This document shows positions 1 to 20,293 of a DNA stretch of 23,642 nucleotides, in pieces. The DNA lies in the IMG/VR virus record IMGVR_UViG_3300047550_002684, positions 1-23,642 of that record; one strand, 5' to 3'. Numbering within the stretch: the stretch's first letter is position 1; each line of letters starts with the position of its first letter. Under the pieces are notes generated by a model, which saw only the letters and a program-made list of their open reading frames with translations, did not search any database and was not told where the DNA came from. The translations under genes were made by a program, and so were the position numbers. The stretch is from a virus.

Positions 1-260
1 CCCCTAACTAAGGTCGTAAAAGTTGTCCCAGAGCCACCTGTTACCGTGGTTGCTGATATATATTCTCTCTTAGTTGGAGTTCGTGTCCCGTTCGCATCAA
101 CCCTATCAATACATAAAATGATAAGTCTTGTTGCTGATACGTCTGATAAATAGCTTGACCAATCATCTGCGATTGCAAAACTTGTTGTCTCCGCCAATGA
201 AAGCGTCGAACTTAGTGTGCTTTGTAAAGCATTCTTGGTCGGTATTGCGTGTATTGCCAT
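1..260 (-). CDS. Partial tail/structural protein (N-terminal part)
   Basis: This is an open frame starting at ATG 258-260 and running off the left edge, with about 86 codons visible. The N-terminus reads MAIHAIPTKNALQ, followed by the stretch IDRVDANGTRTPTKREYIS and TTFTTLVRG. The combination of IDRVD, a TPTKREYIS strand and a TxLxRG turn resembles small beta-rich tail or baseplate-type proteins of tailed phages; this is recalled family resemblance, not a search. It lies 32 bases after the tail-nozzle stop codon. The start is set by the repeated CCAATTAAGA element, which ends 3 bases before the ATG; there is no normally spaced Shine-Dalgarno (AGAGG sits only 1 base from ATG). The function beyond 'virion/tail protein' is inference. 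Confidence 0.75.
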   Translation of the reverse strand, partial: MAIHAIPTKNALQSTLSSTLSLAETTSFAIADDWSSYLSDVSATRLIILCIDRVDANGTRTPTKREYISATTVTGGSGTTFTTLVR

Positions 261-295
261 ACCTCTTAATTGGGAGTCTTAAAACAGGTTTTCTA
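261..295 (-). promoter_or_regulatory. Two-part start-linked element, copy 1
   Basis: On the coding strand TAGAA (the TAG is the stop of the nozzle gene) is followed by CCAATTAAGA and, 3 bases later, the ATG of the next gene. Nineteen bases separate TAG from CCAATTAAG. A short palindrome, AAAACAGGTTTT at 281-292 on the plus strand, lies in the spacer. Promoter or start-associated operator; the role is inferred from repetition and fixed spacing. Confidence 0.7.
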
Positions 296-2249: not shown

Positions 2250-2912
2250 TTATCTCCTCCCTATTCGATAACCTCTTCTGCTGTAATAATCCCTTACACG
2301 GTTTTCTCCACCGCCACTATTGAGTACATTTTGGTGTTCTAACATAGATGCTAGTATTTTTTCTGCGTCTGCCTTAGCTGTTGGGAATCTTGTGTCTCCC
2401 CTGCTTTCCAACACAAAGGCTATTCCACGTTGCACAAGATAATTAGGATTACTTAATGCAGGGATTTGTCCTAGTGATGCTAGACTTGCTGGTAGTTTCT
2501 GGTATTTGATCTGTATAGTTGCACCACTTGTTAACCCTTTTGGTATACGTGCAACATAACCCGACTCTCTGTTACCCTCAATATAGAAAACCTCATCCCA
2601 TGAGTTATACATCTCAAAGTCATTAGGTCTTATCTGTGCGTATTGTCTCGGTCTAGTCAACTCGTCTGAGTCCTCATAAAGAGGTGATTGTGATTTTATA
2701 AAATCCGTTGGTAATGCTAAAGACACTGTCGATGCTTGTGTCGCTGTTGCTGTATAGGTCGTTTTGAGTTCGTCCCAATCATAGGCTAAAGCCCAGTCCT
2801 CATAAGCGTAGTTAATGAATTTCTTCCTGATATCCAAATCGGTATCCGTTGGTGTTGTTGCGTCCTGATCTACATAGCTCCCTATGCGTTGTAGGATTTC
2901 TTCTAGTGTCAT
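2250..2912 (-). CDS. Head-tail adaptor / connector-like protein (tail tubular protein A-like)
   Basis: This 220-residue protein begins with a helical segment (MTLEEILQRIGSYVD, then RKKFINYAYEDWALAYDWDELKTTYTA), followed by a beta section containing SLALPTDFIKSQSPLY, then IQIKYQKLPASL and a basic tail rich in Arg and Tyr. The helix plus 'LPTDF' strand plus 'YxKLP' strand is the pattern seen in connector/adaptor proteins that join portal to tail nozzle in podoviruses. It sits directly upstream of the nozzle gene, as expected for a neck module. The start is fixed by the CCAATTAAGAGGT element immediately before ATG, in sequence identical to that before gene 1-260 over 13 bases. Specific family membership is an inference. 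Confidence 0.65.
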   Translation of the reverse strand: MTLEEILQRIGSYVDQDATTPTDTDLDIRKKFINYAYEDWALAYDWDELKTTYTATATQASTVSLALPTDFIKSQSPLYEDSDELTRPRQYAQIRPNDFEMYNSWDEVFYIEGNRESGYVARIPKGLTSGATIQIKYQKLPASLASLGQIPALSNPNYLVQRGIAFVLESRGDTRFPTAKADAEKILASMLEHQNVLNSGGGENRVRDYYSRRGYRIGRR

Positions 2913-2947
2913 ACCTCTTAATTGGTATGAGTCGAAATTATTTTCTA
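2913..2947 (-). promoter_or_regulatory. Two-part start-linked element, copy 2
   Basis: Coding-strand TAGAA (overlapping the stop of the 105-residue gene), 19 bases from TAG to CCAATTAAGA, then GGT and ATG. The whole 32-base gap between stop and start matches copy 1 in length. It heads the connector-nozzle pair. Confidence 0.7.
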
Positions 2948-3262: not shown

Positions 3263-3644
3263 AATCGTATTTCTTTAACTCGCGTTCTATACTGGCTTTC
3301 TCACTATTAAGGAAAGCGTAACGATACATACGTTTGATTTGTGATTCTCCCATTGCGTCCCTGCCGACCTTATTTGATAGGAGCCTTACTTCCCATAAAA
3401 CATCGTTAAACTCTTTTGCTCCTGTCGATTGCTTGACGTAATCTACAATTGCCGTGATCTCTTTTAAGTATCTTGATGGATCAATCGCACTGTCTCCAAC
3501 CTCTTTAATGATGTTTTTGAGTTGTGTTTCTTCAAGGGTAAAAGCGTCACCACGAGGCTCTGTGCTTTCAACCTCTGGGACTTTCTCTTTGACTTCTACT
3601 TCGTTGTTCTTGATTTGTTTTTTTACGTCCTCTTCGCCTAGCAT
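3246..3644 (-). CDS. Hypothetical acidic/helical protein in the neck module
   Basis: This 132-residue protein is not recognised. The first about 35 residues are highly charged and likely disordered (EEDVKKQIKNNEVEVKEK), followed by predicted helices (LEETQLKNIIKEVGDS, YLKEITAIVDYVKQSTGAKEFNDVLWEVRLLSNKVG) and a basic C-terminus ending YDYGRSK. There is no membrane segment or catalytic motif. It starts 6 bases after the CCAATTAAG core (AATTAAGATAT-ATG) and lacks an ordinary ribosome site. It heads a two-gene unit with the 105-residue protein. A head-tail assembly factor or chaperone would fit the position, but this is inference only. Confidence 0.65.
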   Translation of the reverse strand: MLGEEDVKKQIKNNEVEVKEKVPEVESTEPRGDAFTLEETQLKNIIKEVGDSAIDPSRYLKEITAIVDYVKQSTGAKEFNDVLWEVRLLSNKVGRDAMGESQIKRMYRYAFLNSEKASIERELKKYDYGRSK

Positions 3645-3680
3645 ATATCTTAATTGGTAATAATCACTTCAAGTATTCTA
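3645..3680 (-). promoter_or_regulatory. Two-part start-linked element, copy 3 (TAGAA inside the upstream gene)
   Basis: CCAATTAAGA lies at 3648-3657 (reverse complement) with ATG 3 bases beyond. TAGAA lies at 3676-3680, exactly 20 bases from TAG to CCAATTAAG, as in copies 4-6, but here it is inside the coding sequence of the upstream glycosyltransferase (CTA GAA, Leu-Glu) rather than at its stop. This shows the TAGAA part is not just a by-product of stop codons. Confidence 0.7.
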
Positions 3681-9112: not shown

Positions 9113-9137
9113 AAAAAACCCCCTATTGCTAGGGGGC
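9113..9137 (-). terminator. Intrinsic terminator after the major capsid gene
   Basis: On the minus strand, CCCCCTA, a GCAA loop and TAGGGGG form a perfect 7-bp hairpin followed directly by six T. It lies 26 bases after the capsid stop and separates the scaffold-capsid unit from the glycosylation island. GC-rich stem plus U-tract is the standard rho-independent form. Confidence 0.92.
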
Positions 9138-9162
9138 TTAATGAACCTGTCTCTACCGATTA

Positions 9163-10096: not shown

Positions 10097-10885
10097 CTAT
10101 AATCCAGCACGTCTTATACGTTCCTGTAAGGCTGTTGAGTCTCCGGAACGTGTCTTAACTCTTAAATCGTCAAGGTCATTTGCTGGTTCTCTCTTTTGGG
10201 TAGGTGCGGTATTAGCGATGGCTCTAGTAGCTTGGGATTGTTTATATCCCTCGACTGCTTTTTGCTTCTCGACTTCTACCTTTTCCTGCGTGATCGTTGG
10301 CTTATAAAAATCAGCGATCTCGTCGGCCACTTCTGCAAGTGGTTTCTCTATACCCTCAGAAAAATATCTGACCATGCGATCCCTAACCGCTTCGTAAAAC
10401 TTACGATCGTGTTGGGGGCTTCTAGGGTCTAAGTACGGGTGTTTCAAATGTGCTTCCTGCACCATTCTCGACTCCCTTTCTTTGACATTAGAAAGAGCTA
10501 GTTCTTCCGCTCTTCTCGCTCTATCATTAGCTTCTTTCAAAGCCCGATTGAGTGTGTTTACATCGACATATCCGTTTTGATCTACGAAATCAGTTTTGAT
10601 TTCTTCGGTCTGACGTTGTGTCAAATGTGACGGAAGATAATCAGATAAGTCGTTTTGACTACCTTTGGCATCTAGGGCTTCTTTAAGTTTTCGATTCGCT
10701 TCTTTGAGCTTCTCGAACTCCTTACTAGTTCGCTCTGATACGCCGTCTGGTAAAGATCCCTCTACTTCAGGACCCATCTCCGATTCCACTTCTTCTGTGC
10801 TAGGCAATGGCACTTCGTTGTTCGGTAACGACTGATCCACTACTTGTGGGTCGTCTTGCCCTGTGACTTGGTCTTGGTCACTCAT
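10097..10885 (-). CDS. Scaffold-like capsid assembly protein
   Basis: This 262-residue, highly charged protein lacks hydrophobic core motifs. Residues 1-50 are acidic (VTGQDDPQVVDQSLPNNEV, TEEVESEMGPEVEGS), 55-80 and 115-145 are likely coiled coil (SKEFEKLKEANRKLKEALDA; LNRALKEANDRARRAEELAL), and the C-terminus is basic (LQERIRRAGL). Position immediately upstream of the capsid gene, acidic N-terminus, coiled coil and basic capsid-binding tail are the usual signature of phage scaffolding proteins. The start has AAGGA 6 bases upstream; the ATG also overlaps the stop of a 14-codon leader frame. The assignment is by character and position, since scaffolds rarely share sequence. Confidence 0.75.
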   Translation of the reverse strand: MSDQDQVTGQDDPQVVDQSLPNNEVPLPSTEEVESEMGPEVEGSLPDGVSERTSKEFEKLKEANRKLKEALDAKGSQNDLSDYLPSHLTQRQTEEIKTDFVDQNGYVDVNTLNRALKEANDRARRAEELALSNVKERESRMVQEAHLKHPYLDPRSPQHDRKFYEAVRDRMVRYFSEGIEKPLAEVADEIADFYKPTITQEKVEVEKQKAVEGYKQSQATRAIANTAPTQKREPANDLDDLRVKTRSGDSTALQERIRRAGL

Positions 10886-10928
10886 ATATGTCCTTTCATG
10901 CTCTTAAATAAGGGATAGAGCATCATCC
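10884..10928 (-). CDS. Possible 14-residue leader peptide before the scaffold gene
   Basis: A short frame begins at ATG-ATG (10926-10928), reads MMLYPLFKSMKGHI and ends in a TGA overlapping the scaffold ATG (ATGA). AAGG lies 5 bases before its start. It sits after element copy 4 and spans a 7-bp hairpin, so translation of it could influence scaffold expression. It is short enough to occur by chance. Confidence 0.3.
10898..10923 (-). repeat. Inverted repeat in the scaffold leader
   Basis: ATGCTCT and AGAGCAT, 7 bp and perfect, are separated by 12 bases, a few bases upstream of the scaffold ribosome site. The hairpin could form in the leader RNA. The loop-side TTTAAGAGC-ATG also resembles a degenerate copy of the AATTAAGAGN-ATG element. 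Confidence 0.5.
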
Positions 10929-10938
10929 CGACCTTATC

Positions 10939-10971
10939 TCTTAATTGGGTGTGTGGTTGTTGGGTTTTCTA
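10939..10971 (-). promoter_or_regulatory. Two-part start-linked element, copy 4 (distant from start)
   Basis: TAGAA (overlapping the stop of the 1417-residue gene), 20 bases from TAG to CCAATTAAGA. Unlike the other copies it lies 53 bases before the scaffold ATG (10939 to 10885), so the element does not depend on being a ribosome site for the adjacent gene. Confidence 0.65.
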
Positions 10972-13900
10972 CATTCCAGCTCTGATACGTGGATCGAGCC
11001 TTAGTGCTAATGGTTTAGATTGCACTTTGAATGGTTGAATATTGATCTTAGGTTGCTGTACCTTTGGTGCGATGTTTCCTAGTTGTACTGGTTTAAGTTG
11101 TTGAAAATTAGGTGCTTTAATAGCCTTGATCTTAAGTTTTTGTGCTTTCTTCTTGCTCCCGGAAGCTTTTTTGGTCTTAACTCTTGCCTGTTGTGACTTT
11201 AATATACTAATCAGTTTATTAGCCTCTTCTGCTGTCAATTGTTCATCCTCATAAAGTTTGTATATCTGTGTGATACGCGTGCCTATCTTGCTGTAATAGC
11301 TAGACCTAGCCTTTGTATCTAGCTCTTTAAGTCCTGTTGGCGTAGGTTTCGTGATCGGTTGTGATAGATCGATGACGGTTTCTGAGCCTGTCTCGGGATT
11401 CTTTAGTATAAACACACCCTTGCCAGCTACTTTTGCCGTTTTTGTCGGGTTTTTGGTAGTTTCAGCAGTTTTTTTACTAGCTAAAGACGCAACATAGTCT
11501 TTGGTTTTCGCCGATATTGGTTCACCCACACCATTATCTGCTATAAACTGCCTAATCTGTCTTTGTGCTTCTTCTTTGTTTATCTTTCCACTGTCTAACT
11601 GTCGCCAAAGCTGTTTTTCTAATTTGTCTTTTACTGCTTTTATCTTTGGATCAGTCCCTAATAGGTTTTCGGGTGAGTTATCTCCTCCTAGTGATAAAGG
11701 TATTATGTGGTCATATTCCAAACCATTATCTCCGGGGTTTATATTCGTTTTTCTCTCGAAGATTAAAGCGTCATTGGTTATCTTACGCATAACTTCTTCG
11801 GTGAAAATAGCCTTAATGGTATTTTGTGGGTCGACTGTGATACCTTTGGCGGCTAGAGATATCTTGTCCATTATCGTCTTAGGTGCTTCTGGTGACTGTT
11901 CCCTGCTATTACTAAATCTAGGTGCTGTTGCTTCTTCTTCTGCTAGCAGTTTATCTATCTGTTTTGTGGTAAGTCCTGCCTCATATAAGTCGTTTAACTT
12001 CTTGCCTCCTCTAACTTTCACAAACCTACTCTGTATGTCAGATGTCACACTTCTACCCCCTACTTGTTCTTGCGGGATAACACCCTGATTAGCTAGCACC
12101 CTATCCGATAGGTTTAAAAGCTGTCGGCCCGTACCTGCGCCTGATGAGCTTACAAAATTCTCTACCTTTAAGGGTGATGTATTCAAAACCCCACCAATTA
12201 TGCGAGCTGTACCACTTGTTTTATCTCTTACTTGTTCACTGGCTGGCAACTTAGTCATGTACGAGGGTACAATATCTTCTCCTGTGTAGAAGTTCTTATT
12301 TAAAATAGGCTCAAGACCTAGTTTTAATCCTTGTGGTGTAAACTGGTTCGCAAGTTTTCTCACCGAGTCGCCATCTGTGGGCAACTCAAAAGAAGTGCCT
12401 GCTGCTGAAAGATCGCTCAATACCCGCATAGCTTCTTGTGGGTTCGCACCAGCCCCCTCTATCTGTCTCCTGATGATACTACCCAAATTAGCAAGTCCAG
12501 GCGTTATAGGGATCTTAATCGCATCATAATTACCGTTCTCGTCTTTTACAGGCTTCTCAGGCATTATGATAATGTTTCCCTCTTTTTCGTAGTCTTGTAT
12601 ATCCTCATAGGCCGCCTTTCTTTCATAGTTTGAAACGTTCCAAAGTGTCGCTGCCGCTATAGGCGTACCCACGAATGCTGTAAATCTTAGAGACGTACCC
12701 TTAGGATCTGATATAAACGACTGTCTAAGTGACCTTGCCCCCTGTATACCTGCATTAAAGAAAGGAATTACAGCGTTCAATACTTTCCCGTACTCCCCTT
12801 TCCTAGCGAAGTTGGCCGTATTTGTTCTCGACGCTGCACCAGCCATTAATTCGGCATCGGCTAGTGTCCTGCCCTCTTTTAGCAGTGCGTTTTTAGTACC
12901 GGCATACTGTTGTATTCTTGTTAGATTCTCGGTGGTTCCCACTATGTCCTCTAAAGCTCTAAATAATTGGCCAGGGTTAGTTGCTAGATATTTGACCTTG
13001 CTTGCCACGTTTTTATTGCTCCTAATACTAGCTATAGTGCTTGGCGCTGACCCTCTAGCTATATCAAAACTGGTGAAAGAAGAACCAGACCTTATCCAAT
13101 CTGCATAAAGATTGTCGTGCTTAACCGCCGAGAATAAGGCCTTAACAAAGTTAATGGGGTTAATTATCGATGTCGACAAGGGTTTTTTAGAAATTACCGA
13201 GGCTGTTAGCTGGTCTTTGACTAAGTTCCCTATAATAAAAGGAACATTCACGCCTGTTGCTCCTAACTGTAAAACTCTAGCTGGCACAGCTATTATCTTT
13301 AAAGCTTTAGATAACTGATCCGCATTCAAGTCTTTGGCTGCAGCAGCTATATCCGGTGATACCTCATAGGTCTTTTTCACTCCATTATCTAAAAATGACA
13401 CTGTGTGTTTAGCCCCGATAGTACCTTTAACCTCTTTGCCTGGGATAATACCGTTTTTAATGTAACCACCAAGCATTCTAGCCCCCTTGTTACGTTCTCC
13501 CTCTCTAAATGCTACGCCTGTACTCTCAAGCAAGCTTTCAAGTGGGTTAACTATCTCCCTTTCTGAACCTTTCAGTCTTTTAACTACATTTTGTGAGCCT
13601 ATGGAAGCTGGCCCACCTCTACCACTAGGTGATTTAAGTGCTGATTGCTCTACTTCTGTGAATATTCTCTTTAAGGGTACGTAGTTCGGATATTCTTTAG
13701 CTAAGGCATCAGACAAGTCCTGTGATATTAAGCCGCTTTCTACTAAATAGTTTCTTAACTTGGCGTTATATGCGTAAATCTGTTGTGCAACTGGCTCGTA
13801 TTTACTACCTAGTGACTCTATCAATTGCTTGTCACTTGTTAAGTCTCTACCCGTCCTTATACCCTTTGAGGAGACATCTGTGGCCTGTTTAGCTATTAAA

Positions 13901-15222
13901 TATTGATTTAATCCATCTAGGTTGTCTGTGTTCTTAATTACATCGGCCAAACCGTTGTCTTTTATGAATTGTGTACCCAAGCTATCCGCTCTTAACACTT
14001 TGTCTATCTGATAACGTATGTCCTGTTGTGGAAGTATCTTAAACTTACCCGCCTTTTCGGCTCTGTTTAAAGCTGTTTCTATCGGTGTAGTAAAGTCCTC
14101 AAACTTAGTCTTAATAGACTGTAGAGTATTATCTGCTTTAGTTTTAAAGGATATATTATCTGGAGTTATGCTCTGTTTAGCAGCTTGTTCTCTGATGTAT
14201 TGGTCGGTATTAAACTCAACTTTGCCAGCTGTGTCTCCAACGATGCCCGCTTTCATGCCTAATTTCCTAGCCATTTGCCTATTCTTGACTATCTCTCGAT
14301 ACGCGTTATCTATAGCCTTTTGGTATTGTTTGATTGCTGTCTTACTACCACCCGATTCACTTAATGATTTGATTTTTTGTTCTAGTGTCTTTATGTGTTC
14401 TTGGATGTTCTTATTTTTTAGTGCGTATACGTTACCATCTATGCCCTCAACACGTGGTCTATTTGCTCCGCCTGTAACTGCACCTATCCCGACATCTAAA
14501 AGTGCGTCTGTTGGTGTGTAGTTCTTAATCCCTAGGCTACGGTTCATTATCATGCCCTCTGGGATAGACAATAGACCTGTGACACCTCTGTTAATCACAC
14601 CTCTCGTTGCAGGATTTACTATGTTTTGCCCAAGTCTGCCTGCTGTGTTTGTTATTAGTGGGTTAGTAATCCCGCTTACCATTCTTATTGGTGCATACGC
14701 TGATATTCCCTTGGTAGCACCCTCAAATGGGTCACCACCAAAGAGTTTGCTAACTCCTGCTCCGATTGTCCCTTGTGCAGCTATACCCGGAGTTGCTCTT
14801 AGCATATTTCCTGCGATGCTACCGCCTCCTAGGACACCTGCCGTTGTGAAAGCTGGTAAAGATGCACCTGTTAACCTTGCTACTTTGCCACCTACTGTTT
14901 GTGGTGCGTTAGCAACTTTATCTCTAAAGATTAAGCCCATACCGGGCATTGAACGTAAACCCTCTAAGCCTTGCGCTACATAACCCCTTGCGGAGTTTTC
15001 CGGAGCTTGTTTAGCGAGTTGTGCGAATTGTCTATTGGATTGTTGGAACTCTCTGCTTGTTGGGACAAATGTTTCTTTGAATGCTGTGCCTGCACTATTG
15101 CTGAGACGTTGATTAAACTTTGATACACCTGTAGCCCCCTGTGAGAGACCACCTAACATATTTAATGCGTCGTCTTTAAGTTTGGAAAATCTTGCCTTTA
15201 ATGCGTCTTGTACACTTGCCAT
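10969..15222 (-). CDS. Giant virion-internal/ejected protein: LPD38-like with an HNH nuclease domain
   Basis: This is a 1417-residue protein. Its N-terminal quarter is Gly/Ala-rich with hydrophobic stretches (AGVLGGGSIAGNML, TIGAGVSKLFGG). Residues about 380-520 have helices typical of large polyvalent proteins (KVLRADSLGTQFI, YVPLKRIF). Residues about 650-910 resemble the LPD38 domain (IIGNLVKDQLTASV; NAVIPFFNAGIQGARSL; AAATLWN). Around residues 1140-1220 is an HNH nuclease domain: LEYDHIIPLSLGGDNSPENL with D1171 H1172, then KAVKDKLEKQLWRQLDSGKI, matching bacterial HNH proteins of the DHxIPLxLGG...KDxLExxL type. The C-terminus is Lys/Pro rich. It lies among head genes, as expected of ejection proteins. 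The start has AAGGAG plus element copy 5. Confidence 0.8.
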   Translation of the reverse strand: MASVQDALKARFSKLKDDALNMLGGLSQGATGVSKFNQRLSNSAGTAFKETFVPTSREFQQSNRQFAQLAKQAPENSARGYVAQGLEGLRSMPGMGLIFRDKVANAPQTVGGKVARLTGASLPAFTTAGVLGGGSIAGNMLRATPGIAAQGTIGAGVSKLFGGDPFEGATKGISAYAPIRMVSGITNPLITNTAGRLGQNIVNPATRGVINRGVTGLLSIPEGMIMNRSLGIKNYTPTDALLDVGIGAVTGGANRPRVEGIDGNVYALKNKNIQEHIKTLEQKIKSLSESGGSKTAIKQYQKAIDNAYREIVKNRQMARKLGMKAGIVGDTAGKVEFNTDQYIREQAAKQSITPDNISFKTKADNTLQSIKTKFEDFTTPIETALNRAEKAGKFKILPQQDIRYQIDKVLRADSLGTQFIKDNGLADVIKNTDNLDGLNQYLIAKQATDVSSKGIRTGRDLTSDKQLIESLGSKYEPVAQQIYAYNAKLRNYLVESGLISQDLSDALAKEYPNYVPLKRIFTEVEQSALKSPSGRGGPASIGSQNVVKRLKGSEREIVNPLESLLESTGVAFREGERNKGARMLGGYIKNGIIPGKEVKGTIGAKHTVSFLDNGVKKTYEVSPDIAAAAKDLNADQLSKALKIIAVPARVLQLGATGVNVPFIIGNLVKDQLTASVISKKPLSTSIINPINFVKALFSAVKHDNLYADWIRSGSSFTSFDIARGSAPSTIASIRSNKNVASKVKYLATNPGQLFRALEDIVGTTENLTRIQQYAGTKNALLKEGRTLADAELMAGAASRTNTANFARKGEYGKVLNAVIPFFNAGIQGARSLRQSFISDPKGTSLRFTAFVGTPIAAATLWNVSNYERKAAYEDIQDYEKEGNIIIMPEKPVKDENGNYDAIKIPITPGLANLGSIIRRQIEGAGANPQEAMRVLSDLSAAGTSFELPTDGDSVRKLANQFTPQGLKLGLEPILNKNFYTGEDIVPSYMTKLPASEQVRDKTSGTARIIGGVLNTSPLKVENFVSSSGAGTGRQLLNLSDRVLANQGVIPQEQVGGRSVTSDIQSRFVKVRGGKKLNDLYEAGLTTKQIDKLLAEEEATAPRFSNSREQSPEAPKTIMDKISLAAKGITVDPQNTIKAIFTEEVMRKITNDALIFERKTNINPGDNGLEYDHIIPLSLGGDNSPENLLGTDPKIKAVKDKLEKQLWRQLDSGKINKEEAQRQIRQFIADNGVGEPISAKTKDYVASLASKKTAETTKNPTKTAKVAGKGVFILKNPETGSETVIDLSQPITKPTPTGLKELDTKARSSYYSKIGTRITQIYKLYEDEQLTAEEANKLISILKSQQARVKTKKASGSKKKAQKLKIKAIKAPNFQQLKPVQLGNIAPKVQQPKINIQPFKVQSKPLALRLDPRIRAGM

Positions 15223-15260
15223 ATACTCCTTAATTGGTTAGTTATGGGTGTGTAATTCTA
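15223..15260 (-). promoter_or_regulatory. Two-part start-linked element, copy 5
   Basis: TAGAA (overlapping the coiled-coil gene stop), 20 bases from TAG to CCAATTAAG, then GAGTAT-ATG. Here the core runs into a true AAGGAG Shine-Dalgarno. It heads the LPD38-HNH gene. Confidence 0.7.
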
Positions 15261-16442
15261 TGGTCCGTAGCCGTAGATGTCGTCGTAGGATTTCTTTTTA
15301 CCATACGCACCCGTTGCTGTTGCTAATGGATCAGAACCATATCCCATTGCGTTGTTATATGCGATCTCTTGTCCTGATGCGTCTAAGTTAGAGCTAATGT
15401 TGTCAACTCCTGCTTGTGCTGTACCTACTGTGCCACCAAAGTCATTAACGAGTTTGTTGTATAGTGCTTGTAGTTCACTGTCTTTCAATGCACTATCCGA
15501 CGCGACACCTGATTGTAGTTCTCTTGTGTATTTATTAATATCAGCGACTTCTTGTCGGTATTCTCTTAATAGATTGATCTTGTCAATCTTTTTGCTCTGT
15601 TTAGTCTGGTATTCCATTTGGTCTATCTGGGCTAACTTGTCTCTGAAGTTAAGTTCTGCCTGTGTGATTGCTTGTTGTTTTTGACTCTCAATCTCGTTTA
15701 GCTTAACGTCACGCTCTCTTTGTACGTTAACGATCTGCTTTTCTATATCTCCTATTTGAGCTGAGACCTGTGTTCTTATATCTCCAAATTGTCGTGCTTG
15801 ATCTCGTGCTAATAACTCGCTCGATGCTTGCCCTGCACTAGATAATGCACCACTACCGAACACCTGTTGATTACGTGAACCTAATTCACCATATAAGCGT
15901 CTTGCTGAATCCAAAGCGTTCTCACCTTGTGCTTGTGCTTGAGTTGTTAGGCCTTGTAAATTAGTAACAGCTTCGTCTGCTGATGCTTGCACTCGTGGTT
16001 TCAAACTTTCGTAAGGATTTGACGCTAGTTTTAAAATATCACCCTTGGATTTATTTAAGTTATCTCTCTGCTTACCTATATAGTTCATTATGTCGTCATA
16101 GATGCTATTAACCTCTGATTGTTGTCTCTCCATCTCTTTTTGTGCCTCTGATTTACCGGAACCCCCACCTGACGAACCTGATGATTTGTCCTTTGTTTTG
16201 GGTGTCGGAGCAGGAGCCTGTGTTTTATCACCGAGAATATTGCCCTTAGGTGCTGGTGGACCATACACGACCGGTTTTGATTTTGGAATTGTGATATTCT
16301 TTGCCTTTTCCACAACCGCCATAGATTTATTAATCATGTCAGTTGTAGCCTTTGCTTCTTCAACGGATTTCTTATTACCGCCGAACTTTTCAGTTATTTG
16401 AAATTCTGGTAAACCCCATGAGCCTGTCCCTGCATATGGCAT
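15258..16442 (-). CDS. Coiled-coil virion-type protein, unknown
   Basis: From ATG 16440-16442 this is 394 residues. The order is: an N-terminal segment MPYAGTGSWGLPEF, a Pro/Gly/Ser-rich low-complexity linker (KSSGSSGGGSGKSEAQKEME), then a long Gln/Glu/Lys coiled coil (about 110-320: SEVNSIYDDIMNYIGKQRD; QKQQAITQAELNFRDKL), ending KKKSYDDIYGYGP. Such proteins next to the LPD38 protein are common as internal virion or ejection proteins; no enzyme motif is present. The frame could extend to GTG 16487, but that lies inside the divergent CAP gene and neither start has a ribosome site; an AT-rich stretch, GTATATATTATAAC, abuts the ATG. The function is unknown. Confidence 0.7.
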   Translation of the reverse strand: MPYAGTGSWGLPEFQITEKFGGNKKSVEEAKATTDMINKSMAVVEKAKNITIPKSKPVVYGPPAPKGNILGDKTQAPAPTPKTKDKSSGSSGGGSGKSEAQKEMERQQSEVNSIYDDIMNYIGKQRDNLNKSKGDILKLASNPYESLKPRVQASADEAVTNLQGLTTQAQAQGENALDSARRLYGELGSRNQQVFGSGALSSAGQASSELLARDQARQFGDIRTQVSAQIGDIEKQIVNVQRERDVKLNEIESQKQQAITQAELNFRDKLAQIDQMEYQTKQSKKIDKINLLREYRQEVADINKYTRELQSGVASDSALKDSELQALYNKLVNDFGGTVGTAQAGVDNISSNLDASGQEIAYNNAMGYGSDPLATATGAYGKKKSYDDIYGYGP

Positions 16443-16456
16443 GTTATAATATATAC
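16442..16456 (+). promoter_or_regulatory. Extended -10 promoter for the CAP gene
   Basis: TGTTATAAT (16442-16450) is a perfect extended -10 (TGnTATAAT), and the GTG start at 16457 falls 7 bases after the last T, where transcription would begin. No -35 match is apparent, which extended -10 promoters can tolerate. The transcript is predicted leaderless. Confidence 0.65.
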
Positions 16457-16990
16457 GTGAAAAACCTTGTAAAATACTTACTAGCACTTACCGTACTAGG
16501 GTCTTTTCTCGCTTATCTCTTTATTGGTAAATCCCAAGCACAGTTTTCTATTGCCCCTACTACCGACACTACGAAGCCATATATGTTTAAGTCAGAAGAA
16601 GCCGTTGCTCCCGTGTATACACTACAAACACCGGTCGAATTAGATGAATATGTCATCTATGAACTAGTCAACAAGGAGCGATCTAATCATAAGCTTAAAG
16701 AACTAAGGCTTGATCCCGCACTTTGTGAATACACAGAATTTAGACTAAGCCAAATTAAGGTCAATTTCTCTCATAATGGTTTTAAACAAACATCACTCCA
16801 ATATGTACAAGAAAATAATCTAAAACAGGTTGGGGAAAATCTCGTTAAGGACTACGCATCCGAGAGTGCAACAGTTCATGACTGGATGAACTCACCAACA
16901 CATAGGGAAAACATCCTCGATGCGACCTATAAAGACACCTGTGTCCGCTGCGATGGTCAGTACTGTGTTCAGATCTTTGCTACGAAGTAA
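16457..16990 (+). CDS. Secreted CAP-superfamily (YkwD/SCP-like) protein
   Basis: This 177-residue protein starts at GTG 16457. Residues 1-29 are a signal peptide: Lys-containing N-region, hydrophobic YLLALTVLGSFLAYLFIG, cleavage probably after SQA. A short linker precedes a CAP domain (65-177): YELVNKERSNHKLKELRLDP, FSHNGF with H106, VGENL with E127, WMNSPTHRENIL with H149, the residues that line the CAP pocket. Four Cys (90, 162, 165, 170) could form disulfides. It is the only plus-strand gene, and its own promoter plus leaderless start suggest host-driven expression, as in moron genes. CAP proteins are exported, with roles in surface or cell-wall biology that vary and are often unknown. Confidence 0.88.
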   Translation: MKNLVKYLLALTVLGSFLAYLFIGKSQAQFSIAPTTDTTKPYMFKSEEAVAPVYTLQTPVELDEYVIYELVNKERSNHKLKELRLDPALCEYTEFRLSQIKVNFSHNGFKQTSLQYVQENNLKQVGENLVKDYASESATVHDWMNSPTHRENILDATYKDTCVRCDGQYCVQIFATK

Positions 16991-17300: not shown

Positions 17301-17486
17301 TTACTCAGTTTTCTGGAACTTCTTGTTTGCTTCTTTGATAGGAAACTTACCCTCCGGGTCAAAGAACCCTAGACCACATTTAGTACACTCAACGTTTAAA
17401 CCCATGCGTACAAAGTTGTGTTGACAGCCCTTGATCTCACCTAGATTGAACACTTTATCGTTGATTATGACCTGTTTGTCCTCCAT
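17301..17486 (-). CDS. Small zinc-ribbon-like protein
   Basis: This 61-residue protein carries C21-x-H23 and C34-x2-C37 in KGCQHNFVRM and VECTKCGLGFFDPEGKFPI, a plausible mononuclear zinc site of the short ribbon kind. Such tiny proteins are frequent near phage terminase and portal genes with unknown roles. ATG overlaps the sigma-factor stop as TAATG, with AAGGAGAG 6 bases upstream, so the two are translationally coupled. An accessory factor of transcription is conceivable given this coupling, but there is no direct evidence. Confidence 0.75.
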   Translation of the reverse strand: MEDKQVIINDKVFNLGEIKGCQHNFVRMGLNVECTKCGLGFFDPEGKFPIKEANKKFQKTE

Positions 17487-18112
17487 TATGCTCTCCTTAT
17501 GTTAACTCGGTGACTTAAAATGTCTGCTAACATGATCTGTTCACGCTTACGGATCGTTTCTATGCCTAAACCTAGGATATGTGCGATCTCTGATAGTGTT
17601 CTTGGGATCCCACCTGTCACTCCTAGCCTTAGTTTGATGATTGCTCTATCTTTTGGGTCGTATTTGGAGATAAGTGTGTCTAAATAGTCGCGTCTTACTT
17701 GCATTTCTTCTTGTAAGATCTCATTTCCGAGTATTTCATCTTCCATTTCTAAAGTATCGGGTATCATATCCGCGTAACCTTTAGCATCTTCGTTGAAAAT
17801 CGACTCTGTGAGGTCTACATTACGGTAATCACAAGCACTTTGGAGTGCATCTAGCATGTAAAAGTAAACATATGTAGTAATAGACATGGATTGTTTGACC
17901 TTTTCGGGGTTAAAGTTCCTAGTTGCTTTCATTAGTCCTATGTGTGCTTCTTGTACGAGGTCGTCAAACTCGATTAACCGGCTGTATTTTTTAGCATATT
18001 TATCAGCGTAGTACTTAAATAGTCCGTCAAAATGGTCGTGTAACTTTGCTTGAGAGGCTCTGTTCCCCTCTTTGGTCTCTTTGATAAGCTGGATTACTTG
18101 ATCCATCTCCAT
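17486..18112 (-). CDS. Phage sigma-70 family factor
   Basis: This 208-residue protein has a sigma region 2 at about 45-98 (RLIEFDDLVQEAHIGLMKATRNFNPEK, then MSITTYVYFYMLDALQSACDYRN) and region 4 at about 145-200 (DRAIIKLRLGVTGG, RTLSEIAHILGLGIETIRKREQ, the recognition helix-turn-helix). In between is an acidic linker (DTLEMEDEILGN). It lacks region 1.1 and region 3, as small alternative and phage sigmas do. It probably redirects host RNA polymerase to phage promoters; the repeated TAGAA/CCAATTAAG elements in this window are candidates. It overlaps the preceding gene by 19 bases, with GAGG before the ATG. Region 2 has fewer aromatic melting residues than housekeeping sigmas. Confidence 0.88.
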   Translation of the reverse strand: MEMDQVIQLIKETKEGNRASQAKLHDHFDGLFKYYADKYAKKYSRLIEFDDLVQEAHIGLMKATRNFNPEKVKQSMSITTYVYFYMLDALQSACDYRNVDLTESIFNEDAKGYADMIPDTLEMEDEILGNEILQEEMQVRRDYLDTLISKYDPKDRAIIKLRLGVTGGIPRTLSEIAHILGLGIETIRKREQIMLADILSHRVNIRRA

Positions 18113-18423
18113 TTTTTGTCCTCCTGTTTAGATTTGATGTTTTGGATGATTTTATCCTGTTGGTTTAAGATCTCGATTACGTTTTTGACTACTTCAGTAC
18201 CACCTCTCGCAAAGGTATAAGCTAGAGTCAGTGACTCGTAGTCCTTATACTCCTTGGGGTTGGGGTAGCATCGCTTCTCCTCCGCCAAGAGGATTTGCAG
18301 GAAGTCCGACCATCCCCTGTGCTGGATTAACTCCAGTAACCTCTGGGCTTTGTCCAGTTGCTCCTGCTGTGATTGGGTTAACTTCGACTCGTTCAAAGAA
18401 CTTGTCTGCGTCTTGTAGTCCAT
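18094..18423 (-). CDS. Small helical protein overlapping the portal C-terminus
   Basis: This 109-residue protein is not recognised by name, but its order LDKAQRLLELIQHRGWSDFLQILLAEEKR, then YESLTLAYTFARGGTEVVKNVIEILNQQDKI resembles short proteins that follow portal genes in many tailed phages. It overlaps the portal gene by 179 bases in another frame, so about 60 of its residues share DNA with the portal tail. AGAAG precedes the ATG. It also overlaps the sigma gene by 19 bases. If the start were later, only the unshared C-terminal half would remain. A role in portal assembly or stability is a guess from position. Confidence 0.6.
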   Translation of the reverse strand: MDYKTQTSSLNESKLTQSQQEQLDKAQRLLELIQHRGWSDFLQILLAEEKRCYPNPKEYKDYESLTLAYTFARGGTEVVKNVIEILNQQDKIIQNIKSKQEDKKWRWIK

Positions 18424-20257
18424 TATCTTCTAATACTTGTACTAATAAGTCTTTGATCTTAACTTTCTCCTGTTCGACTTGTAACATTCCTTGTATTTCA
18501 GGAGTCATTAACATCTCAAGTGCTTTACCTCTACCAGCTTTGTTTGCTTCGTTAGCGTTCAAAGCCATTGATTGTACACTTGGTATATAGTCATACACCC
18601 CATCTACGTCCTCAGGCAATAAGTAAAGTTCACCACTCTCACCACGTTCATCGATCTTTAACTTGGGTTGGATGTCGTAATTTGCTGGGTCTTGTTCTTC
18701 AGGGTTCATTATTACAGAATGTTTATAACTCTTACCCATATCAAGCATCTGGTTCATTGCAAAGTCACTCATCTCACCATCTGTTTCGTTGATCATGCCC
18801 CTTACTTCATCTAGTACCATAGGGTCTAAGATCTCTTGGTCTAGTTCCATAGCTTGTAGATCTTTGATCGCTGATTTACCCACAATCCTTAGTATGTGCA
18901 TCTTTTTTGTTGGGTCATCGAACAAGAACTGCTGGTTGTTAAGTAACCAGAGTAACATCTGATCTTTCAATGCTTGTTCCAAGTAGATTTGGTTTTGTTG
19001 GTCTCTTGATAACTTCTGTCTCTCTGATGCTCTGACCTCTGTTGCGGTCTTATCTGTAGCAAACGGGTCTCCAACTCCAACACCTTGGCTCATCTCGCCC
19101 ATAGCTGTGTTATATGCGTTTAAAAGAGCTGAATATATTGTTTGGAAGTTAGACATGACATCGCTTGCGGACACCATCTCTTGTACGTTGTTAGTAGAGT
19201 CACCTACTATCCATTGTGCGTTTGGCCCCCATTCGATTGTGTCCATTCTCACTGTTTGGTTGTTAGCAATCTTGACTGGTGGTCGTTGTCTTAGGTTAAT
19301 CTCATCGATCGTACCACATAGTAAAGCCGTGATGGCTCTCCATACTGGTAACACTGGCTCGACTTCTGACTCACCATAGATATCGTCGCCGACACCGTAA
19401 TATCTTAATTGGATAACCGGTATTCTTTTATGTTTATAAGGGTTAGGGACGTCTCTTATGATGATTCCTAACCTTGGACAAAACGTAATCCATCTATCTT
19501 TTCTGTATTCTGTAACAACCTCGAGTGTTGGGAATGCTGTATCTGATCCGACCCTATCCTCTAAGCCTTTCATATCTTTAACTACAGAGTCATACTTAGC
19601 GTCCCTACGGTCTCCGTTACCACCCTCTTGGAGTAGGTCTTTGACTGCACTTAGGTTGATATACATAGGCTCCGGACTTGATTCGTTCTCTTCTTCTAAC
19701 TCACGGTATGTTTTCCACTCTCTGACCTGTACCCAGTTAGCGTTTTTAACATGGTTTGCTGTGTAATCAACAACAACATCTCTATTGTCTAGGACTTTCA
19801 TTTCGTTGCCATCAAATATACGCTTACCGTCTGATTCCTCGGTTCTCCAGTATACTAAAGCAAAGGATGCACCAAACAAACGTGTCTGTACGTCCATTAA
19901 CGCCCATTTCTCTAGCATCGAGCCACCTAACTCTGCGTTGTCCCATTGAAACTCTAGTAATGCGTTGTTGAGTTTAGCTTTGATCATGTCACCACCCTCT
20001 CTTGGTACGAGTCGGCCTCTTAGTTTACCGTTGAATAGTCTAGCGTTCTTCTCTAGGATTGTTGTTCTGATAAGTGGAATAGACACCATTGATAGATAAG
20101 GCCATGTAGCCTCGTCTAACTTGCCGTAATATGCTTTGATTGTGTCGTTCCAACCGTTCTCTCTTAGTCTGCGTTGGTCGTTGTCGATCGTTCCCTTTTG
20201 GTAATGATCTAAGAGAATAGGTAATATAGACTCATTTTTAGTGGATTTCTTGGCCAT
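18245..20257 (-). CDS. Portal protein
   Basis: This 670-residue protein is the size and sequence style of podovirus-type portals: an N-terminal wing (LLDHYQKGTIDNDQRRLRENGW, IPLIRTTILEKNARLFNGKLRG), a mid section (DVQTRLFGASFALVYWRTEES; IPVIQLRYYGVGDDIYGES), a stem-associated segment (TALLCGTIDEINLRQRPPVK; SAGAL-like GVGVGDPFATDKTATEVRASERQKLSRDQ) and a C-terminal disordered GQSPEVTGVNPAQG tail ending QPQGV. It forms the dodecameric ring at the packaging vertex and nucleates head assembly. It is the first gene of its unit, headed by element copy 6, with the start set by CCAATTAAGAGTT-ATG. Its last 179 bases overlap the next gene. It also contains one CCAATTAAG copy in coding sequence at 19403-19412. 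Confidence 0.85.
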   Translation of the reverse strand: MAKKSTKNESILPILLDHYQKGTIDNDQRRLRENGWNDTIKAYYGKLDEATWPYLSMVSIPLIRTTILEKNARLFNGKLRGRLVPREGGDMIKAKLNNALLEFQWDNAELGGSMLEKWALMDVQTRLFGASFALVYWRTEESDGKRIFDGNEMKVLDNRDVVVDYTANHVKNANWVQVREWKTYRELEEENESSPEPMYINLSAVKDLLQEGGNGDRRDAKYDSVVKDMKGLEDRVGSDTAFPTLEVVTEYRKDRWITFCPRLGIIIRDVPNPYKHKRIPVIQLRYYGVGDDIYGESEVEPVLPVWRAITALLCGTIDEINLRQRPPVKIANNQTVRMDTIEWGPNAQWIVGDSTNNVQEMVSASDVMSNFQTIYSALLNAYNTAMGEMSQGVGVGDPFATDKTATEVRASERQKLSRDQQNQIYLEQALKDQMLLWLLNNQQFLFDDPTKKMHILRIVGKSAIKDLQAMELDQEILDPMVLDEVRGMINETDGEMSDFAMNQMLDMGKSYKHSVIMNPEEQDPANYDIQPKLKIDERGESGELYLLPEDVDGVYDYIPSVQSMALNANEANKAGRGKALEMLMTPEIQGMLQVEQEKVKIKDLLVQVLEDNGLQDADKFFERVEVNPITAGATGQSPEVTGVNPAQGMVGLPANPLGGGEAMLPQPQGV

Positions 20258-20293
20258 AACTCTTAATTGGGTATAGAGTGGCGTTCTTTTCTA
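20258..20293 (-). promoter_or_regulatory. Two-part start-linked element, copy 6
   Basis: TAGAA (overlapping the upstream stop), 20 bases from TAG to CCAATTAAGA (20261-20270), then GTT and ATG of the portal. It heads the portal-to-zinc-protein unit, including the sigma factor. Confidence 0.7.

Follow-up and report, generated by a model that had tools for sequence, protein, structure and literature searches.

A phage-encoded sigma factor and a shared promoter-like element suggest a private start signal for the late genes of a virus

A phage-coded sigma factor gene is situated among the late genes of the virus studied here, and the question raised by this locus is which promoters such a factor would read. 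The window, i.e. the whole stretch of DNA that was analysed, is an IMG/VR record of 23,642 bases, which is all that exists there for this phage and represents part of the genome only, the early region being absent. Its capsid protein is of the SU10 family (Pfam), SU10 being described as a podophage with C3 morphology (PMC4281155). We consider it rather probable that the phage sigma factor, together with host core polymerase, would read a two-box element found at the head of the late units, and would in this way drive the late genes as well as its own gene. The evidence described below suggests that the late genes have been switched to a private start signal.

The sigma open reading frame begins with an ATG that is preceded by a Shine-Dalgarno-like AGGAGG, and its product matches both Sigma70_r2 (2.1e-6, residues 33-75) and Sigma70_r4 (1.3e-6, residues 152-191) of Pfam over the cut-offs, so that the limits of 45-98 and 145-200 given for the two regions in a preliminary description of this DNA are about right. 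The best PHROG match is PHROG 351, 'RNA polymerase sigma factor' (1.3e-21), and the broad sigma model TIGR02937 of NCBIfam also passes its cut-off (1.6e-16). Models of the SigE, RpoD and SigK types score the protein alike, all far under their cut-offs, and only the broad superfamily model passes. The layout is like that of ECF (group 4) factors, with 208 residues, regions 2 and 4, and no Pfam match for region 3. As had been described, the gene belongs to the portal unit, being placed after the portal gene and the 18094-18423 gene and behind the portal copy of the element (Table 1). No close homologue could be found in viral_contigs, and a tblastn search of 50,697 phage records returned one weak match, MT838730.1 (27.8%). 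An alignment-free structure prediction gave a mean pLDDT of 45.6, which is too low to use.

Table 1. Genes and promoter-like sites of the window discussed in the text (window positions).
Feature	Position	Strand	Remarks
Sigma-70 family protein, 208 aa; proposed late sigma	17486..18112	-	Regions 2 and 4, short linker
Portal / head-tail connector, 670 aa	18245..20257	-	First gene of the unit; Pfam, PHROG
Small gene preceding sigma	18094..18423	-	Overlaps Zn-motif gene directly, sigma absent, in 10/10 relatives in which both were found
Zn-motif gene, small, CxxC...CxxC-type, after sigma	17301..17486	-	Its ATG overlaps the sigma stop
CAP-domain secreted protein	16457..16990	+	Opposite strand, outside the proposed regulon; Pfam
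TG-T-TATAAT of CAP gene	16442..16457	+	At -12..-7 of GTG (16457); host-type leaderless promoter, not the element
Element copy, portal unit (portal, 18094 gene, sigma, Zn-motif gene)	20255..20293	-	CAATTA at -12..-7 of portal ATG
Element copy, seventh, TAGAAAA..ACCAATAAAG	16519..16550	-	Antisense inside CAP gene
Element copy, LPD38-type gene (10969-15222)	15229..15260	-	Box 2 nt farther from ATG than others
Element copy, scaffold-capsid unit	10940..10971	-	Leader ~57 nt; box 17 nt before leader GATGC
Element copy, 3246-3644 gene	3642..3680	-	
Element copy, tail/connector unit (2250-2912, then 293-2248)	2910..2947	-	
Element copy, gene running off left end (3-260)	258..295	-	

The element consists of TAGAAA, a spacer of 17-18 bp and CAATTA, all seven copies having CAATWA. 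The pattern TAGAA-N16..24-AATTAA has six matches in the window, all on the minus strand, where 0.41 would be expected, and the stricter TAGAA-N17..18-CCAATWAAG has seven, where 0.01 would be expected. With a two-box weight matrix the seven sites score 23.8-31.1, and the next best site 16.1 (spacer 14/15) or 17.8 (wider spacers). The maximum in 400 Markov copies was 20.8, compared to 26.2 for the seventh copy; in block shuffles scanned with the wider spacers, one of 20 reached 26.2, equal to the score of that copy. A chance origin of the element is rejected by the expected counts together with the maximum of the Markov copies. Another candidate, CCAATTAAG within the portal gene (19404), was discarded, being without a TAGAA box and having a low weight-matrix score of 15.8. 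The six copies listed in the preliminary description are all present, but the seventh, which heads the 15258-16442 gene, had been overlooked; it is located about 72 nt upstream of the likely ATG (16442) of that gene, and AATAAA replaces AATTAA. Likewise, TAGAA holds as a -35-like box, but the -10-like hexamer is better taken as CAATTA at -12..-7. The element looks like a promoter, and a shared, apparently non-host promoter appears to head the late units.

The CAP gene and the glycosylation genes had been described as being without the element, and indeed no copy is found at the head of either. Two promoter types are therefore present within one window, CAATTA at the late units and TATAAT at the CAP gene. 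The CAP gene has an extended -10 sequence of its own, TGTTATAAT, at leaderless distance (window 16442-16990); in the sister genome G003 the CAP gene has TTGACT...TATAAT at the same distance to its ATG. We take CAP proteins and lytic proteins as possible hints of a bacterial host with a small genome, which is not put forward as a claim; genome_contigs was scanned twice, using alignments of the tail nozzle and the capsid, and no relative was returned. A strong terminator-like hairpin (9116-9139; 10 pairs and a T-run), 3' of the capsid gene, divides this gene from the glycosylation island, which is without the element.

When the corrected element pattern was searched in viral_contigs, 12 contigs with one copy each were found, and tblastn to the window proteins gave only a weak match of 32 residues to the 3664 gene in one of them (L292), and none in the others. 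Eight of these contigs (L289-L291, L293, L294, L296, L298, L300) have in common one conserved stretch that fits the pattern by chance; it is present as a single copy in each, is accompanied by no window protein match, and looks like a coding match rather than the element.

In the copies that directly adjoin a gene the -10 box is located at -12..-7 from the ATG in four of five cases, and is 2 nt off in the remaining one. Since CAATTA is usually exactly at this distance, leaderless late mRNAs are predicted: in five of the seven copies the box is at, or two bases beyond, the distance at which the A of the ATG would be the first transcribed base, and the late mRNAs from these copies probably have no leader. 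For the scaffold and 15258 units, leaders of about 57 and 72 nt, respectively, are expected. In the comparison described below, strong Shine-Dalgarno pairing was found at 1 of 61 headed starts, as opposed to 44% of 328 other starts. Leaderless transcripts for the headed genes but not for the inner ones would give such a difference, and a reading of the element as a Shine-Dalgarno sequence is rejected on this basis.

Relatives were gathered by capsid, terminase and nozzle searches, and the late genes found in 13 of them (G001-G004 and G007-G015) have the same order. The sigma slot is empty in all ten relatives in which both the 18094-type and the Zn-motif genes were found, the two genes overlapping there. 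Sigma70_r2 scored over the cut-off in two of the 13 (G002 and G007) and in none of 18 further relatives; the same two were the only ones of the 13 with region 4 over the cut-off, again with none of the 18, and a search with the window sigma itself found only these two. 'Without a detected sigma' is used here for genomes with no match in the available sequence, several records being fragments. The G002 and G007 sigma factors are SigA-like, have 270-273 residues, and are encoded elsewhere in the late region than the window sigma. The two share 39% identity, and over the aligned part the identity of each to the window sigma is about 21-23%.

In the concatenated tree G002 and G007 are joined (support 100), the window and G003 are joined under midpoint rooting, and the rest of the relatives, in which no sigma was detected, group as a single clade. 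Single-gene support for the G002-G007 pair is 100 (capsid), 72 (nozzle) and 49 (tail), and the portal tree splits the two. The sister G003 is a 26 kb fragment with an empty sigma slot and TTGAAA...TAT promoters. Independent gains of a sigma factor thus number about two (one in G002 plus G007, one in the window), and with each of them the late promoters have changed as a complete set; with only about two such gains, the correlation between sigma and promoter is thin. As an observation aside, G002 encodes an integrase-like protein (L213 18557-19504), as judged by reading the sequence, and its terminase is only 33% like that of the window; G002 may be temperate and mosaic.

The late promoters were compared in 12 genomes, leaving out the near-duplicates G011 (of G012) and G015 (of G013). 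Excluded were the 15258 orthologue of G000 (copy at a distance) and of G001, G009, G012, G013 and G014 (TTG longest-frame or unsettled start), the LPD38 gene of G002 (truncated at the end of its contig) and all scaffold genes (leaders); the 3246, tail and last genes of G010 and the 3246 gene of G008 were not found. In two G007 genes the in-frame ATG following the TTG was taken as the start. In all 12 genomes a -10-like box is located at -12..-7 from the start codon. Stretches of 40 nt preceding the orthologous late genes have a mean within-genome similarity of 0.45-0.72, compared to 0.31-0.35 for other genes, and none of 2000 random sets reached the late-gene value in any of the 12 genomes. 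In the nine genomes without a detected sigma the sites are of the type TTGAAA/TTGACA...TATnnn, with the triplet TAT at -12..-10 in 41 of 45 sites; a regular motif is also present in these relatives, and hence does not need a phage sigma. TAT is absent from this position at all 16 sites of the three genomes with a sigma, the triplet being TAG in 10 of 11 sites of G002 and G007 and CAA in four of five sites of the window. Partial relatives without a detected sigma add TAT in 17 of 17 further sites, a count that omits a capsid row and nine distant relatives in which the motif is absent (L266, L267, L269, L273, L274, L277, L278, L283 and L285); L266, L267 and L274 have a TTGA box but no TAT at -12, and the starts in L277, L278 and L285 are of the Shine-Dalgarno type or of other types.

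At the scaffold unit a -35/-10 pair could be identified in eight of 11 scored genomes, with the box 17-20 nt before the leader GATGC: TTGACA...TATTTC or TATTTA in seven genomes, and TTGCAA...TATGTA in G003. G000, G002 and G004 misfit the search pattern, and the CAATTA-GATGC distance of 17 nt in the window was found by reading the sequence; the scaffold copy of the element occupies the orthologous promoter position. The leader itself is conserved (window 10883-10943; L202, L219, L204 and others), reading GGTGATGCTCGCC...AGAGCA in most relatives and GGGATGATGCTC...GAGCAT in the window. A regulatory role of this leader is possible; its folding in four sequences gave z values of -0.7 to -3.8, clearly better than shuffles in one of the four, and no structure is proposed for it.

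The residues expected to contact the promoter were compared by aligning the window sigma to SigA (SigA1). Around the helix that reads the -10 box this alignment extends up to residue 94, but the sequence there is divergent and the alignment weak (17.7 bits in region 2); the Pfam region 2 match stops at residue 75, short of this helix. Positions were numbered according to what we take to be the E. coli sigma70 sequence. In this weak alignment the window sigma has D for Q437, Q for T440, and F and Y for W433/W434, while E585 is kept; the element has C at -12 and retains the G of the -35 box. The changes Q437H and T440I are reported to suppress a T-to-C change at -12, and E585 to contact -33 (PMC2613000). 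A change of residues reading base -12 where that base went from T to C fits a reading of the element by the window sigma, and is not proof of it.

Based on the sigma gene, the seven sites, their spacing and the promoters at orthologous genes, we infer that the 208-residue sigma factor joins host core RNA polymerase and reads the element as a late promoter (-35-like TAGAAA, spacer of 17-18 bp, -10-like CAATTA). It would drive the portal-sigma, 15258, LPD38, scaffold-capsid, 3246, tail and last-gene units, and as its gene is inside the portal unit, it would amplify itself by positive feedback. The first sigma transcript could come, for instance, from read-through from the upstream terminase unit. 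The preliminary description had called this a candidate self-contained late regulon, in which 'self-contained' is too strong, since the sigma depends on the core polymerase of the host and on an initial transcript to prime it, and the early region lies off the record. Its connection of this sigma with this element has gained comparative support, in that promoter class tracks the presence and type of the sigma and the residues aligned to 437/440 are changed where base -12 is changed, and is still to be regarded as a proposal. With regard to evolution, host-type late promoters would have come first, followed by capture of the sigma and then by conversion of the sites. That seven sites have changed in concert is most readily explained by a changed reader, for which the sigma acquired on this branch is the only visible candidate. 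Whether the group captured unrelated sigma factors at least twice, each time with the whole late set rewritten (TAT to TAG and TAT to CAA) and including the match of residues 437/440 to base -12, is a proposition for which we find the balance about even.

Some other readings of these data have to be weighed. The product that switches on the late promoter might be a different phage protein (activator, second sigma factor or appropriator) encoded in the missing early region, with the 208-residue sigma acting elsewhere. The record does cover part of the genome only, and with fragments for the window, G003 and several other relatives, it is conceivable that a sigma factor, an activator or a polymerase has gone unseen; the regular motifs of relatives without a detected sigma also agree with such a factor. 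We nevertheless regard this reading as unlikely, since relatives of 42 kb (G001) and 43 kb (G012) have no sigma match over the cut-off and host-like late promoters, and in the window the phage sigma is the only visible specificity factor, its -12-reading residues having changed together with base -12.

That the host primary sigma reads the sites, with CAATTA resulting from drift or from what the host prefers and with the phage sigma as a recent passenger that has host targets, is quite improbable. Host reading is the likely ancestral state, given that relatives without a detected sigma have TTGACA/TTGAAA...TATnnn before these genes, but TAT at -12 is found in none of the five start-abutting window copies and CAATWA in all seven, the CAP gene of the same window keeps TATAAT at -12..-7, and seven separate sites would not drift alike. 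Very improbable, finally, is a function of the element in RNA, as a ribosome-binding or processing signal and not a promoter. It would agree with the element containing AAGAG and with most copies abutting the start codon, but for two copies the distance to the start is about 57 and 72 nt, conservation extends to two boxes with 17-18 bp between them, anti-Shine-Dalgarno pairing is weak (-1.4 to -1.7) at four of five scored headed starts (the fifth having -8.7), and TTGACA...TATTTC is found at the same place in relatives. Reading of the element by the phage sigma is our preferred interpretation. If true, a virus group has been caught moving its late genes from the host transcription code to private codes, more than once, and ancestral-looking and changed promoters can be compared at the same genes. 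The group would form a natural series of changes in the sigma-promoter code, permitting direct tests of the joint change of a sigma factor and its promoter set and of the ways in which phages become independent of the host sigma; that late mRNAs are leaderless throughout the group would be testable too.

A literature search on leaderless phage late genes and phage sigma co-evolution, which covered few subscription papers, returned nothing on the present group. Leaderlessness alone is not new, as phage transcripts are remarked to be often leaderless (PMC5312081). As in mycobacterial leaderless genes (PMC4633059), the promoter is so close to the start codon that the mRNA would be without a leader; unlike there, we deal with a prediction from sequence, in a phage group. 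Phage phiEco32 offers a likeness in that its sigma factor gp36 serves middle and late genes through a short conserved promoter, tAATGTAtA (PMC8948821, PMC4331800). As described, however, gp36 has nothing homologous to region 4 and uses a one-box promoter, whereas the window sigma has region 4 and the element two boxes. From the available account, the nearest known system in kind is phage 7-11, by analogy, the sigma factor SaPh711_gp47 of which is reported to use late promoters of the type GTAAtg-(16)-aCTA (PMC8948821); in the related phiEco32 both the sigma and the promoters differ from these, their positions in the genome being similar (PMC8948821, PMC4331800). In 7-11, as proposed here, a sigma factor with region 4, encoded deep among the late genes, directs host core polymerase to a bipartite late promoter. 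The promoter sequences differ and those of the present group abut the start codon; unlike in the 7-11 system as described, the present group also includes members without a detected sigma that have host-like late promoters at the same genes.
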